NCBI GenBank assembly: GCA_020346185.1
Contig: CP070775.1
Coordinates: forward strand, 1,324,897-1,357,774
Source of the DNA: Betaproteobacteria bacterium
Lineage (GTDB): Bacteria; Pseudomonadota; Gammaproteobacteria; Burkholderiales; Eutrophovitaceae
Direction of reading: 5' to 3'
DNA: 32,878 nt
Made by a program: the position numbers and the translations under genes. The notes beneath the pieces were generated by a model. It made no database searches, was not told where the DNA came from, and was given only the letters and a program-made list of their open reading frames with translations. Positions 8,820 through 19,277 of this stretch are shown here, piece by piece; position 1 is the first letter of the stretch, and each line of letters starts with the position of its first letter.

Positions 8820-9950
8820 CTAGCGCATTGCCTCTAGCGTGACCGCGACGCGAACCTCTTCTCCGTCTCGCAGAATGGACAGTGAAACCATGTTGCCGAC
8901 CTGAAAGTCATCAAGACTTGCAAACAACTGGCCCACCGAAGCAATCGATTGATTCTCGACAGCAACGATAATGTCTCCGGGCACGATGATGCCGTCCGCG
9001 CGTACCCTTGCCGCCCTCAGGCCGGCTTTTGCCGCTGCGGAGCCGCGTTCGACATCGAGGATGATGACGCCTTCGACGCCGAGCTCGACTGAAAGGCGAC
9101 GGTTAAGTGTCTCGTCGACCTGAATGCCTAGGCCCGGCTGGATGAACCTGCCGTGACGGATAATTTGAGGCACGATGTGGTTGACGGTGTCTGCCGGTAC
9201 TGCAAAGCCGATCCCGGCCGAAGCACCAGAGGGGCTGAAAATGGCAGTATTCATTCCGATCAGACGGCCGGCGGAATCGAGCAAAGGCCCGCCCGAATTA
9301 CCCGGGTTGATCGCCGCGTCCGTTTGAATCAGATGATCGATGCTTCTGCCACCATCGCCGGCGAGACTGCGGTCCAGTGCGGAGACAATACCAGTGGTGA
9401 GGGTCCAGTCGAGACCGAAGGGATTGCCAATGGCGAAGACTTTCTGACCAACTCGGAGGTTATTACTCGAACCAAGCGGTACCGGTGGCGGACTCTGCTC
9501 GCCGACGTCGATCCTCAGGACCGCAACGTCATGAGCTGGACTTACGCCAACCAGTGATGCCTTGTAATCGCGTCCGTCTGCCAGTCTCACCGTCGCCTCA
9601 CTTGCTCCTTCGACGACATGGAAATTGGTCACGATGTGCCCATGCGTGTCCCAAACGAACCCCGAGCCGTTGCCGCGTGGCACGGAGAACACATTTCGCG
9701 TCCAGAAATCACGAACTTGCTGTCGAGTGCTGATGAAGACGACCGAATTTCGCGCGCTTTCGAATAGCGCGATGTCAGCTTGCTCCTCGGCGGCAAGATC
9801 ACCGCGCGGCGCGACTGCGCGAGGCTCGGCATGAGGCAGGTCTGCCGCATGATTGGGTGGCGGCAGGTGACGCCACAGTGCGATCAGTATCGCGCCGGCA
9901 ACCGTGAGCCAGAACAAACGGCGTAGGAAAAGATCTGATCGATTCTGCAC
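8820..9950 (-). CDS. Membrane-anchored HtrA/DegS-like serine protease with one PDZ domain
   Basis: A 376-residue protease. A single N-terminal hydrophobic anchor (LFWLTVAGAILIAL, residues 12-25) is followed by a Pro/Ala-rich linker, then a trypsin-like domain with the full triad: His111 (TNFHVVEG), Asp141 (AHDVAVL) and Ser219 (NPGNSGGP). One PDZ domain fills about residues 270-376. This layout matches DegS and short HtrA proteins, which sit in the inner membrane with the protease in the periplasm and act in envelope quality control. DegS triggers the sigmaE response, but no rseA or rpoE gene is in the window, so that role is not claimed. The interrupted small gene follows 34 bases downstream. 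Confidence 0.92.
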   Translation of the reverse strand: MQNRSDLFLRRLFWLTVAGAILIALWRHLPPPNHAADLPHAEPRAVAPRGDLAAEEQADIALFESARNSVVFISTRQQVRDFWTRNVFSVPRGNGSGFVWDTHGHIVTNFHVVEGASEATVRLADGRDYKASLVGVSPAHDVAVLRIDVGEQSPPPVPLGSSNNLRVGQKVFAIGNPFGLDWTLTTGIVSALDRSLAGDGGRSIDHLIQTDAAINPGNSGGPLLDSAGRLIGMNTAIFSPSGASAGIGFAVPADTVNHIVPQIIRHGRFIQPGLGIQVDETLNRRLSVELGVEGVIILDVERGSAAAKAGLRAARVRADGIIVPGDIIVAVENQSIASVGQLFASLDDFQVGNMVSLSILRDGEEVRVAVTLEAMR

Positions 9951-16083: not shown

Positions 16084-16417
16084 GCCGTTAATGTGCCCGG
16101 CACAGGTAAGTCTTTCCCGGCAGTGTTAGGTGAGCTGACTTCCATGCACCGTACATGTTAAGGCATGTGGCCGTCGGGAGGCAGCAGGCATCGTTTCGAG
16201 CCGTGTGGACAGCGCAGCATTTAGCATGAACTAATGCGCCATTGCCTATCGCGTGTTCACGTAGAATAACTCTCGGACCGTCGCTGAACGCTGCAGCGAT
16301 TGGCGCTGAGGAAGCTCAATCAATGAGCAGCGTTGCAAGACGGTCGACTGCATTGAAGTCAGTACGCTAACCTTCGATGTGTGTATTCTTGGGCACCGCT
16401 CCCGATCAAATAATTTG
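16084..16417. other. Intergenic region between divergent rsgA and MscS-type gene
   Basis: No gene, RNA or repeat that I can support. It must hold both promoters, but no clear pair of -35/-10 boxes stands out. Confidence 0.4.
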
Positions 16418-17524
16418 ATGCTTGCAGATTTTTCCACTTTCCTCGAGCGTCTTGGCTTGGGTTTCGAGTCACTCTTGACGCTGTTTCTGGCGGCCGCGCT
16501 CGGGCTCGCGCTTGCCTGGGTCACCACGTTTTTGCTCAAGCGAATGGCCAAGTTCGAACGCACACGTCTCGCTGCCGCTGTCGCGGCACGCTGCGCCGCC
16601 CCATTAAAGGTTCTTCTGCCTGTCCTGGCGATGTCTGTCGCGCTAACCGGTCTCGATACCTCCGCGGGCATCGGCGAGCATTTGCCGCGCGCGCTGACCG
16701 TACTGGGTATCGCACTGGCGGGTTGGCTCGCCATACGCGCCGTGCGCGGGTTGGTCGACTACTTTCTGACCGCCTACAGCATAGATCACGCCGACAACCT
16801 GGAAGCGCGCCGAATGCAAACGCAGATCCGGGTGCTGGGGCGGGTGATGATCTTCGTCGTCGTGCTCGTGACTGCCGCCGCAGTGATGATGTCGATTCCC
16901 AGCATCCGCCATATTGGTGTGAGCGTGTTTGCCTCGGCTGGGATCGCTGGGCTCGCCCTGGGTTTGGCGGCGCGACCAGCGCTTGGCAATGTCATTGCCG
17001 GTATCCAGATTGCGTTGACGCAACCGATTCGGATTGAGGATGCGGTGGTTGTCGAAGGTGAATGGGGCTGGATAGAAGAGATTCACCTGACATATGTCGT
17101 GGTGCGCATCTGGGATTTGCGCCGCCTGATTCTGCCGATCTCGTACTTCATCGAGAGGCCCTTCCAGAACTGGACTCGTACCACTGCGGACATACTCGGC
17201 TCGGTCATATTGCATATGGACTACAGCGTACCGGTGGACGAGATTCGTGCCGAATTTGGCCGGGCCGTCAGAGCATCGAAGCACTGGGACAGCAAGGTTG
17301 ACGTGGTGCATGTCGTGGACTGCACAGATAGAACGATGCAAATCCGGTTGCTGATGAGCGCCGCCAGTTCGCCCGGCGCGTGGGAGTTGCGTTGCGCCGT
17401 GCGTGAGCACATGATCGGCTACCTGCAGCGCGAGTACCCTGAGTCGTTGCCGCGGATTCGACTGGAGAAAATCGACGAAGTTGGCCGCGGCGCCGCGATG
17501 CAGGGTTCCTCAAACAACGGTTAA
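16418..17524 (+). CDS. MscS-family small-conductance mechanosensitive channel
   Basis: A 368-residue membrane protein with helices near residues 15-35, 65-85, 95-115 and 145-170, then the pore-helix region IGVSVFASAGIAGLALGLAA and RPALGNVIAGIQIALTQPI. The beta domain follows with EDAVVVEGEWGWIEEI and the conserved ILPISYFIERPFQNW. The family opens on membrane tension to release solutes after osmotic downshock. The ATG at 16418 is preferred over a GTG 39 bases upstream, which would add a charged leader that does not fit. The gene is short and compact compared with the long coiled-coil paralogue at the left end of the window. Confidence 0.9.
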   Translation: MLADFSTFLERLGLGFESLLTLFLAAALGLALAWVTTFLLKRMAKFERTRLAAAVAARCAAPLKVLLPVLAMSVALTGLDTSAGIGEHLPRALTVLGIALAGWLAIRAVRGLVDYFLTAYSIDHADNLEARRMQTQIRVLGRVMIFVVVLVTAAAVMMSIPSIRHIGVSVFASAGIAGLALGLAARPALGNVIAGIQIALTQPIRIEDAVVVEGEWGWIEEIHLTYVVVRIWDLRRLILPISYFIERPFQNWTRTTADILGSVILHMDYSVPVDEIRAEFGRAVRASKHWDSKVDVVHVVDCTDRTMQIRLLMSAASSPGAWELRCAVREHMIGYLQREYPESLPRIRLEKIDEVGRGAAMQGSSNNG

Positions 17525-17670
17525 CTCGAGAGTCTTCGTGGTTTTACCGAGGCCGTGATCGAGGCTAGCGGCGCTGCTCGATGCGTTGCTGAGGAAATTG
17601 CTGCCCGGTTTTTCCGAAGCAACGCGATCGATAGCGGAGTAACTGCACTCATGAGATGGGGAGACCAAGA

Positions 17671-18114
17671 ATGCCGACTTACACTGTCCTTTCTCCTGCT
17701 GGCCAATTGTCGCGCCAGAAGAAGAAGACCATTGCTGGGAACATTACCCGCACCCACAACGAGGTTACTGGCGCGCCGTCGTTCTTTGCCCAGGTCGTGT
17801 TCGTTGATATCGCAGATGGAAACTGGTTCGTCGGCGGGGCCGCGCTGGAATCAGACCAGATTTACATTTATGGCCACATTCGTGACGGACGTTCCGCTGA
17901 AATGAAGCGCAAGCTGGTGTTGGCGCTTCGGGACGCTCTCGCCGAGGGTGCTGCGGTCCCTACCAGTCGGGTGTGGAGTTACATCGTCGAACTACCGGCG
18001 GCGGACATGGTGGAATACGGTCACGTTCTTCCCGAACCTGGCGACGAAGCCGCATGGATGGAAGGGTTGCCATCTGAGGATCGAGCAATGATGGAGACTG
18101 TCGGGCCGGCATAG
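17671..18114 (+). CDS. Tautomerase-superfamily protein, cis-3-chloroacrylic acid dehalogenase-like
   Basis: A 147-residue protein starting Met-Pro-Thr-Tyr; after Met removal Pro1 would be the catalytic base. GGGGAGA before 17671 supports this start over the ATG 15 bases upstream. Against the cis-CaaD family all six reported catalytic residues are in register: Pro1, His28, Arg70, Arg73, Tyr103 and Glu114, and the C-terminal MVEYGHVLPEPG and WMEGLPSEDRAMMET also match. cis-CaaD hydrolyses cis-3-chloroacrylate to malonate semialdehyde; Cg10062 shares these residues but is poor at that reaction, so the native substrate is open. Located 21 bases before a membrane-protein gene, no haloalkane pathway genes are near. 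Confidence 0.88.
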   Translation: MPTYTVLSPAGQLSRQKKKTIAGNITRTHNEVTGAPSFFAQVVFVDIADGNWFVGGAALESDQIYIYGHIRDGRSAEMKRKLVLALRDALAEGAAVPTSRVWSYIVELPAADMVEYGHVLPEPGDEAAWMEGLPSEDRAMMETVGPA

Positions 18115-18135: not shown

Positions 18136-18777
18136 ATGAGCGTTTTGCAGCCAGAGAGTAGGGTGACCGTTTCTCTGTGGATAAAAATAAGCTACACGGT
18201 TTTTGTGGCACTTCTGGTGCCCGTTTACTGGCTTCAGTACGGACCGCAGAATTTTCTTTGGGGTTCAGATCTCGTTTTGTTTGGAACACTGTTGGCGGTT
18301 TGGTTGGAGAGCCGTTTGCTCATCAGCATGATGGCGATTGCGGCCCTGATTCCAGAACTTTTTTGGACGGTCGACTATTTCGGACGATTGATTGCCGGAC
18401 CAGAGGCGCTACCAGGACTCGGCACACAGTACATGTTCAATCCTGATATTCCGCTGCACGTTCGTGGACTTTCACTGTTCCACATTGTGCTTCCCCCGTT
18501 ACTCGTTTGGCTACTGCAACGGTTCGGCTATGAGCGACGCGCATTTATCTATCAGACTGTGCTGGCGTGTCTGGTCTTGCTGATTTCTTACCTGTTTACG
18601 GAGCCGACGGCAAACATTAACTGGATCTACGGCTTTGGGCGCGAGCCTCAAACATGGATGCCGGAGCGTGTGTACCTCGCTTTGTTGATGATCTGCATCC
18701 CGTTATTCTTTTACTTGCCCACACATCTGGTGCTCAGGAAATTGTTCGGGCGGTCGTCAAAGAGAAGCACCGGTTAG
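18136..18777 (+). CDS. Uncharacterised integral membrane protein
   Basis: A 213-residue hydrophobic protein with about six or seven membrane helices (residues near 15-35, 45-65, 66-80, 115-130, 138-158 and 180-200). Between helices lie conserved-looking motifs: ELFWTVDYFGRL, LSLFHIVLPP, and TEPTANINWIYGFG. I do not recognise the family. The ATG follows AGGGAG about ten bases upstream, and the gene is 21 bases from the tautomerase stop, so the two are probably one transcript. The histidines in FH and PTH positions and the polar residues near the membrane edge may be functional, but nothing points to a substrate. Confidence 0.7.
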   Translation: MSVLQPESRVTVSLWIKISYTVFVALLVPVYWLQYGPQNFLWGSDLVLFGTLLAVWLESRLLISMMAIAALIPELFWTVDYFGRLIAGPEALPGLGTQYMFNPDIPLHVRGLSLFHIVLPPLLVWLLQRFGYERRAFIYQTVLACLVLLISYLFTEPTANINWIYGFGREPQTWMPERVYLALLMICIPLFFYLPTHLVLRKLFGRSSKRSTG

Positions 18778-18809: not shown

Positions 18810-18986
18810 AGCGCGTCGAGTTTCGCCGCGCGTGTTGTTGTTTTAGTTCCGGCCGCGCACTACGTTTGCTTAACCTGCTGCGCAGGTTAGCCTGCACTGA
18901 AATGACTTTATTTACCCGCTTCGCAGCCTTTTCGACTAAAGGTCGAAAAGCGCGTCGAGTTTCGCCGCGCAAATAAAGTCATTTTC
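18810..18986. repeat. Direct repeat and nested inverted repeats around the end of the pterin dehydratase gene
   Basis: A 22-base direct repeat lies at 18810-18831 and 18949-18970. An outer inverted repeat pairs GAAATGACTTTATTT (18899-18913) with AAATAAAGTCATTT (18971-18984). Inside it is a perfect nine-base stem, CTTTTCGAC/GTCGAAAAG (18928-18936 and 18942-18950), containing the dehydratase stop codon. A further eight-base palindrome, TAACCTGC/GCAGGTTA, is at 18871-18889. The right-hand copies are coding sequence for the C-terminus of the dehydratase. Confidence 0.85.
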
Positions 18987-19277
18987 ACTAATGCCTTTTA
19001 TTGCGTGGGTCATGTAGGCGACTTCGCATTTGTCATAGCTGACCGTGATGTCAGGATGATGGTCTTCGCGGTGCGAGATCCACGCTGTTGCGTTGACGAA
19101 CGCCATCGTCTGGTAGTAATCCTTGAAGTTGTAGGTCTTGCGGATCATGCCGTCCGTATAGGCCCAGCCTTCGACGCCCTTGAGCAAGTGGCCGATCTGG
19201 ACCTCGGTCATCGGATCGACGCCACCCTCACAGGGTTTGCATTTCTTGCGCACCAGGTTTTGTGCTGTCGTGACCAT
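18936..19277 (-). CDS. phhB: 4a-hydroxytetrahydrobiopterin dehydratase (pterin-4a-carbinolamine dehydratase)
   Basis: A 113-residue enzyme that dehydrates 4a-hydroxytetrahydropterin during pterin recycling after aromatic hydroxylation. Active-site histidines lie in HREDHHPDI (His73, His74 with the nearby aromatic WISH), and CKPCEGG near the N-terminus is typical of the bacterial form. GGAGGAA nine bases upstream supports the start. No phenylalanine hydroxylase gene is in the window; the enzyme can also act elsewhere. The 3' end, including the stop at 18936-18938, falls in a strong inverted repeat, and the last 35 codons include sequence repeated in the adjacent intergenic DNA. Confidence 0.95.
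   Translation of the reverse strand: MVTTAQNLVRKKCKPCEGGVDPMTEVQIGHLLKGVEGWAYTDGMIRKTYNFKDYYQTMAFVNATAWISHREDHHPDITVSYDKCEVAYMTHAIKGISENDFICAAKLDALFDL

Follow-up and report, generated by a model that had tools for sequence, protein, structure and literature searches.

The window analysed here, a stretch of 32,878 nucleotides from the genome of a Betaproteobacteria bacterium (contig CP070775.1; the genome is one contig of 3.6 Mb with a completeness of 90%), carries at 17671-18114 a gene whose product belongs to the cis-3-chloroacrylate dehalogenase (cis-CaaD) subgroup, a known subgroup of the tautomerase superfamily that is widespread in bacteria. The gene and the signal that precedes it are as follows:

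17671-18114, plus strand: cis-CaaD-subgroup tautomerase gene, 147 amino acids plus stop, ATG start, with Pro1, His28, Arg70, Arg73, Tyr103 and Glu114
17658-17663, plus strand: Shine-Dalgarno-like GGGGAG, 7 bases 5' of the ATG at 17671

The position of the GGGGAG supports a start at the ATG at 17671 over one at the in-frame ATG at 17656, and so does the Met-Pro start, which is conserved among the relatives of the protein. A promoter scan at the locus was uninformative, with zero found against 1.3 expected from shuffles. The protein matches Tautomerase_3 (Pfam) at E 8.6e-15, over the cut-off, and phmmer aligned its residues 1-143 with cis-CaaD free of gaps, the best chain (E 5.9e-30) being 9NG8, a T34A mutant of cis-CaaD according to its PDB title. 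When the two proteins are aligned, the six cis-CaaD residues listed above are all in register. The preliminary description of this DNA had claimed as much, and had added that the C-terminal part of the protein matches cis-CaaD; both claims hold, the second by the gap-free phmmer alignment and by a structural alignment over 145 residues. Compared with the copy in a congener, the gene shows a ratio of nonsynonymous to synonymous substitution rates (dN/dS, NG86) of 0.18 over 146 codons; it is under purifying selection and has therefore been maintained.

An AlphaFold2 monomer model of the protein, built from 56 sequences, had a mean predicted local distance difference test (pLDDT) score of 94.1 and superposed on chain B of cis-CaaD (2FLZ) with a Z score of 22.5 and a deviation of 1.2 A over these 145 residues. 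Structure prediction and superposition on cis-CaaD had been put forward as a check in the preliminary description; the model has the cis-CaaD-type fold, with its fused beta-alpha-beta pair. The model also superposed on Cg10062 (also named CgX; 3N4G, Z 22.0) and on N1 (7M58, Z 22.0, 1.1 A over 143 residues, 32% identity), and on the strength of this model the three scores are ties. The top matches by sequence in the PDB were cis-CaaD, Cg10062 (some entries being titled '4-oxalocrotonate tautomerase') and 7M58. The matches to cis-CaaD lay in the E 1e-28 range, with authentic 4-oxalocrotonate tautomerase (4-OT; 1BJP) at 0.91 and the malonate-semialdehyde decarboxylase (MSAD) of FG41 at 0.53, and by sequence the protein is nearer cis-CaaD and Cg10062 than 4-OT, MIF or MSAD.

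Relatives of the tautomerase are encoded at 123 places in the named genomes, of which the best 80 were kept; together with the window protein, cis-CaaD and Cg10062 they make up 83 rows, the titles of which include Proteobacteria, Acidobacteria and Actinobacteria. The search pattern for the 80 named loci spans residues 33-42 and forces none of the six catalytic residues (it forced Ala34, Phe38 and Ile, Leu or Val at position 42), and the P-H-R-R-Y-E set is complete in 83 of 83 rows. Another 29 translated loci were free of the pattern: L010 and L049 are partial, and L042 is a remote protein that keeps only Pro1 and one arginine of the six. The sequence spans all six sites in 27 of the loci: the set is complete in 15, four have Ala1, seven lack Tyr103 only and one is the remote protein. 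The 19 close ones (E 4e-27 or better) comprise 15 with the full set and four that lack Pro1 only. With 16 of the 29 added to the 83 rows (one of them, L014, is identical to the named locus L109), all six residues were found in 88 of 99 rows; Ala replaces Pro1 in four, and Tyr103 is altered to Arg, Ser, Asn or Lys in seven shorter proteins. Among 399 genomes of the order, 14 encode a relative with an E value of 4e-27 or better; among 398 genomes sampled from the phylum, 8 encode one with 4e-28 or better. The source genome is counted in both figures.

Judging from these alignments, the residue match with cis-CaaD is far beyond chance, yet it is a clade trait, and the six-residue set marks the clade and not dehalogenase activity. 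Since close relatives have the six residues in common, their presence does not demonstrate that the window protein removes chlorine, and we rejected the catalytic set as proof of a dehalogenase, invariant as it is in the close clade. Naming such proteins chloroacrylate dehalogenases from the six residues is therefore unsafe, tempting as the inference is. The statement of the preliminary description that most annotated tautomerases lack the full set is right for the superfamily at large, an example being Linker 1, with Ala at the Tyr103 position according to PMC5818174, but it does not apply to this clade.

Two side observations were made among these relatives. The four Ala1 proteins (L015, L016, L017 and L018, minus-strand matches from 1501) are of the cis-CaaD type, keep the other five residues intact and come each from a different genome of a single genus within the order; PMC5818174 reports 346 superfamily members without Pro-1, mostly in the MSAD subgroup. 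The relative at L035:1501-1923 (genome G570) has an in-frame TAG at codon 43, and the same genome holds a second, partial tautomerase copy (L049) about 25 kb from it; the gene is intact in L037 of the same genus.

Overall identity of the window protein is 39.9% to cis-CaaD (143 columns) and 36.8% to Cg10062 (133 columns). Thr34, His69 and Phe104 of cis-CaaD are replaced by Ala, Ile and Ile in both the window protein and Cg10062; His69 and Phe104 are private to cis-CaaD among the 83 rows, and Thr34 has a key role in cis-CaaD according to a molecular dynamics study (PMC11641302). PMC6100074 served as background only. Because Ala34 was forced by the search pattern, its presence in 82 of the 83 rows is circular and carries no evidence in the named loci; the pattern-free relatives share it, however, in 26 of the 26 cases in which this column is occupied. 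If the pattern columns are disregarded, 13 residues are private to cis-CaaD, more than to any other of the 83 rows; Cg10062 has 10 such residues and the window protein three, with a median of two. By this measure cis-CaaD is the derived enzyme and the window protein an ordinary one. Phe38 and His117 of the window protein differ from Leu38 and Arg117 of Cg10062, and it differs from cis-CaaD at these two sites as well. To judge by sequence, the six residues cannot separate a dehalogenase from a Cg10062-like enzyme; Ala34, Ile69 and Ile104, together with the private-residue counts, tilt the balance towards the latter, which is no proof.

Cg10062 itself is a poor and unspecific chloroacrylate dehalogenase that hydrates acetylenic acids. 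By analogy we infer, with moderate confidence, that the window protein is most likely a Cg10062-like, cofactor-free hydratase of a small unsaturated acid. Its natural substrate is probably an ordinary small alkenoic, alkynoic or enol acid and not cis-3-chloroacrylate, and dehalogenation would be at most a side activity, as it is in Cg10062. The protein is built from two fused beta-alpha-beta units and a C-terminal helical extension and presumably forms a trimer. If the roles that the residues have in the mechanism of cis-CaaD and Cg10062 are transferred to it, Arg70, Arg73 and His28 would hold the carboxylate of the small unsaturated acid, Glu114 and Tyr103 would activate the water that attacks C3, and Pro1 would give a proton to C2 or make a covalent adduct. 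The preliminary description had left two options, a true dehalogenase and an enzyme like Cg10062 whose natural substrate is a different one; the latter is favoured here, and the dehalogenases encoded elsewhere in the genome keep the former alive.

Several points weigh against a hydratase of the Cg10062 type. An approximately unbiased (AU) test did not reject the union of the window group and cis-CaaD in one clade (p 0.754, the tree held to this union even beating the free tree), nor its union with Cg10062 (p 0.46). A quick tree had grouped the window protein with the loci L051 and L052 (98 in the Shimodaira-Hasegawa-like approximate likelihood ratio test, SH-aLRT) and placed both characterised enzymes elsewhere, but since the AU test rejects neither union, we did not use tree placement as evidence. 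The two types also overlap in activity, as PDB titles tell: native cis-CaaD is found with acetylenecarboxylic acid, Cg10062 mutants with its hydration intermediates, and mutants of both enzymes with covalent intermediates of acetylenecarboxylic acid hydration. Moreover, residues that are private to a single derived enzyme are not necessarily those that make it a dehalogenase. Finally, the genome encodes dehalogenases and MmsA, a possible malonate semialdehyde route, none of them near the window tautomerase gene.

Compatible with the hydratase reading, as with the others, is the idea that the tautomerase and the membrane gene next to it form a dedicated module, an enzyme with a protein for uptake or export, which part of the genus acquired as a unit. 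We regard this as possible but rather unlikely. The genes around the tautomerase gene are:

16379-17524, plus strand: MscS-type mechanosensitive channel, the upstream flank (146 bp from its stop to the tautomerase start), present also where the pair is missing
18136-18777, plus strand: 213-amino-acid protein, hydrophobic by eye, no family match, 21 bp 3' of the tautomerase gene
18936-19277, minus strand: 4a-hydroxytetrahydrobiopterin dehydratase, the flank beyond the membrane gene

An M48-type peptidase gene (similar to HtpX, below the cut-off) lies beyond the pterin dehydratase gene on the other strand. The gene order is the same in the congener bin90 (locus L051, which is L002 in genome G015), with gaps of 111 and 19 bp, so that in both genomes with the pair the membrane gene follows closely, after 21 or 19 bp. 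The locus of a third congener, G014, also speaks for a module: on one contig, about 60 bp separate the MscS gene from the pterin dehydratase gene, tautomerase and membrane gene are absent between them, and neither was found elsewhere in this genome (71% complete). The pair must therefore have come or gone together at least once; this is a single event, and a block deletion would explain it too. In a fourth congener, G016, none of the tautomerase, membrane and MscS genes was detected at the thresholds used.

The distribution of the membrane protein argues against such a module. Of 250 genomes searched in the order, nine encode a homologue, the source genome and the congener included. In the other seven the membrane gene has other neighbours: in stretches of 7-10 kb around it, tblastn of the window's open reading frames at E 1e-8 hit the membrane protein and frames overlapping it and nothing else, so that no tautomerase lies beside it. 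No full-length tautomerase is among the matches listed for these seven, three of which have short 4-OT-like matches. Tautomerase and membrane gene are adjacent in only two genomes of one genus. We also considered the membrane protein as a general partner of the clade and rejected this, because it occurs in seven genomes without an adjacent tautomerase; among the 80 named loci it stands beside one, that of the congener L051. The preliminary description had called the tautomerase coupled to a membrane protein that might transport its substrate. The close adjacency is real, but a transport role for the 213-amino-acid protein is a guess, since it has no match in Pfam, NCBIfam or PHROGs.

As a side observation, an exact 22-base repeat was found at 18810-18831 and 18949-18970, with a spacing of 139 bp; its second copy falls within the pterin dehydratase gene, at the 3' end. 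At the congener locus L051 there are three 49-base copies, at 9122-9170, 9264-9312 and 9399-9447, which are 142 and 135 bp apart and 71-78% alike. It seems that part of the 3' end of this gene has been copied in tandem.

A less probable alternative to the hydratase is that the window protein acts chiefly as a keto-enol tautomerase, or as an enzyme of C-C bonds, on a catabolic intermediate, the hydratase residues being inherited and serving another step. According to PMC5818174, phenylenolpyruvate tautomerase activity was detected in all enzymes on the path from 4-OT to cis-CaaD, including cis-CaaD and CgX, but it is lost stepwise along this path, and cis-CaaD and CgX are without activity on 2-hydroxymuconate. 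A further point against this alternative is that none of the 83 rows departs from Tyr103 and Glu114, which a pure tautomerase would hardly need. In its favour, the gene contexts of the relatives fit catabolism or detoxification in general. Neighbours were counted by tblastn searches of all 80 named loci in which a single query protein stood for each kind of neighbour, which makes the counts lower bounds; they were not taken from a clustering by called genes, which lost 11 of 81 loci for want of a gene called at the centre. At least 16 of the 80 loci have a MarR regulator upstream of the tautomerase gene, on its strand and no more than 2.5 kb away (15 within 300 bp), among them L052, the closest relative outside the genus. 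A major facilitator superfamily (MFS) transporter was counted downstream, again within 2.5 kb, in at least seven loci, an alpha/beta hydrolase upstream in at least four, EamA in at least three and a pyridoxal phosphate (PLP)-dependent beta-eliminating lyase in at least two.

No single context is common to most relatives, and no shared haloacrylate pathway was seen around them, their contexts being those of MarR, MFS, EamA or ATP-binding cassette (ABC) transporters, short-chain dehydrogenases/reductases (SDR) and PLP lyases. Altogether, these neighbours suggest catabolism or detoxification of small compounds, with no named substrate. Contexts are just as varied on annotated plasmids; for example, the tautomerase gene is followed by an MFS gene in Cupriavidus oxalaticus, and MarR, tautomerase and MFS genes are found in Paraburkholderia. 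The order MarR, tautomerase, MFS in some relatives is a possible handle on the natural substrate of the clade.

Two further context types were noted. A MarR gene is directly upstream in Xenophilus, Caballeronia, Trinickia and Paraburkholderia, which make up 14 of the 16 MarR loci (L052, L057, L058, L060, L061, L064, L065, L079, L084, L085, L088, L093, L106 and L108). In Bradyrhizobium (L063, L070, L074 and L077), the tautomerase gene has an alpha/beta hydrolase gene upstream and, downstream, a GSDH-domain gene in convergent orientation.

Somewhat more doubtful still is a true dehalogenase of cis-3-chloroacrylate, or of a related 3-haloacrylate, acting late in a haloallyl or haloalkane route. 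A haloalkane dehalogenase would act first, alcohol and aldehyde oxidation would follow, and the window protein would then yield malonate semialdehyde, which would pass to acetyl-CoA via MmsA. The genome search for dehalogenases that had been suggested in the preliminary description was positive. A LinB-like haloalkane dehalogenase (L177:1498-2385, at 252.6 kb) scored 445 bits against a cut-off of 241, which no protein of 14 control genomes exceeded, and its best PDB match is 7PW1 (E 5.2e-161); an enoyl-CoA-hydratase-like gene adjoins it. There are also two type II haloacid dehalogenase (HAD) proteins (164.4 and 129.8 bits, cut-off 125.4, exceeded in 2 of the 14 controls) and MmsA (719.6 bits, cut-off 448.5, exceeded in 5 of 14). 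Apart from the window protein, a search of the genome at E 0.1 yielded a single tautomerase-superfamily protein, of about 120 residues and at 323 kb; it matches 7M59 best (E 1.9e-9), then the alpha chain of trans-CaaD (E 3.2e-6, second half only) and the FG41 decarboxylase (0.056). The dehalogenases, MmsA and the match to trans-CaaD speak for a dehalogenase, as does the AU test, which does not reject a clade with cis-CaaD. On the other side, the match to the FG41 decarboxylase is weak, the candidate pathway genes are all remote from the tautomerase gene, the haloalkane dehalogenase gene by about 1.09 Mb, and the window protein departs from cis-CaaD at residues 34, 69 and 104. A downstream MSAD is a feature of the cis-3-chloroacrylate pathway, and neither MSAD nor trans-CaaD was identified in the 90% complete source genome, where MmsA would be an alternative route. 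That both ideas are true at once, with the hydratase and a dedicated membrane partner gained as a module that completes a haloallyl route from LinB to MmsA without MSAD, is very improbable.

A phage or plasmid origin of the gene was rejected: its contig measures 3.6 Mb, and the genes on either side of it are present in congeners too. A comparison with PHROGs at 0.001 gave no match, and a single-protein scan of viral_contigs, which finds close relatives only, confirmed none. Its plasmid relatives (14 records) are all below 60% identity.

Among characterised proteins, Linker 1 (Ps01740, 5UIF) shares Pro1, His28, both arginines and Glu114 with the window protein, according to PMC5818174; it differs by the alanine at the Tyr103 position given there and by a chain of 127 residues instead of 147. 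N1, which is titled a cis-CaaD family member, resembles the window protein in fold and in sequence (E 8.3e-26), but the identity is as low as stated above. The likeness to cis-CaaD (2FLT, 2FLZ) extends to fold, length, the six residues and the C-terminal extension, whereas Thr34, His69, Phe104 and other cis-CaaD-private residues are missing from the window protein, as are an identified decarboxylase and trans-CaaD from its genome. Cg10062 from Corynebacterium glutamicum differs by its lower identity and by Leu38 and Arg117 in place of Phe and His, and it is alike in fold, in the six residues and in Ala34, Ile69 and Ile104.
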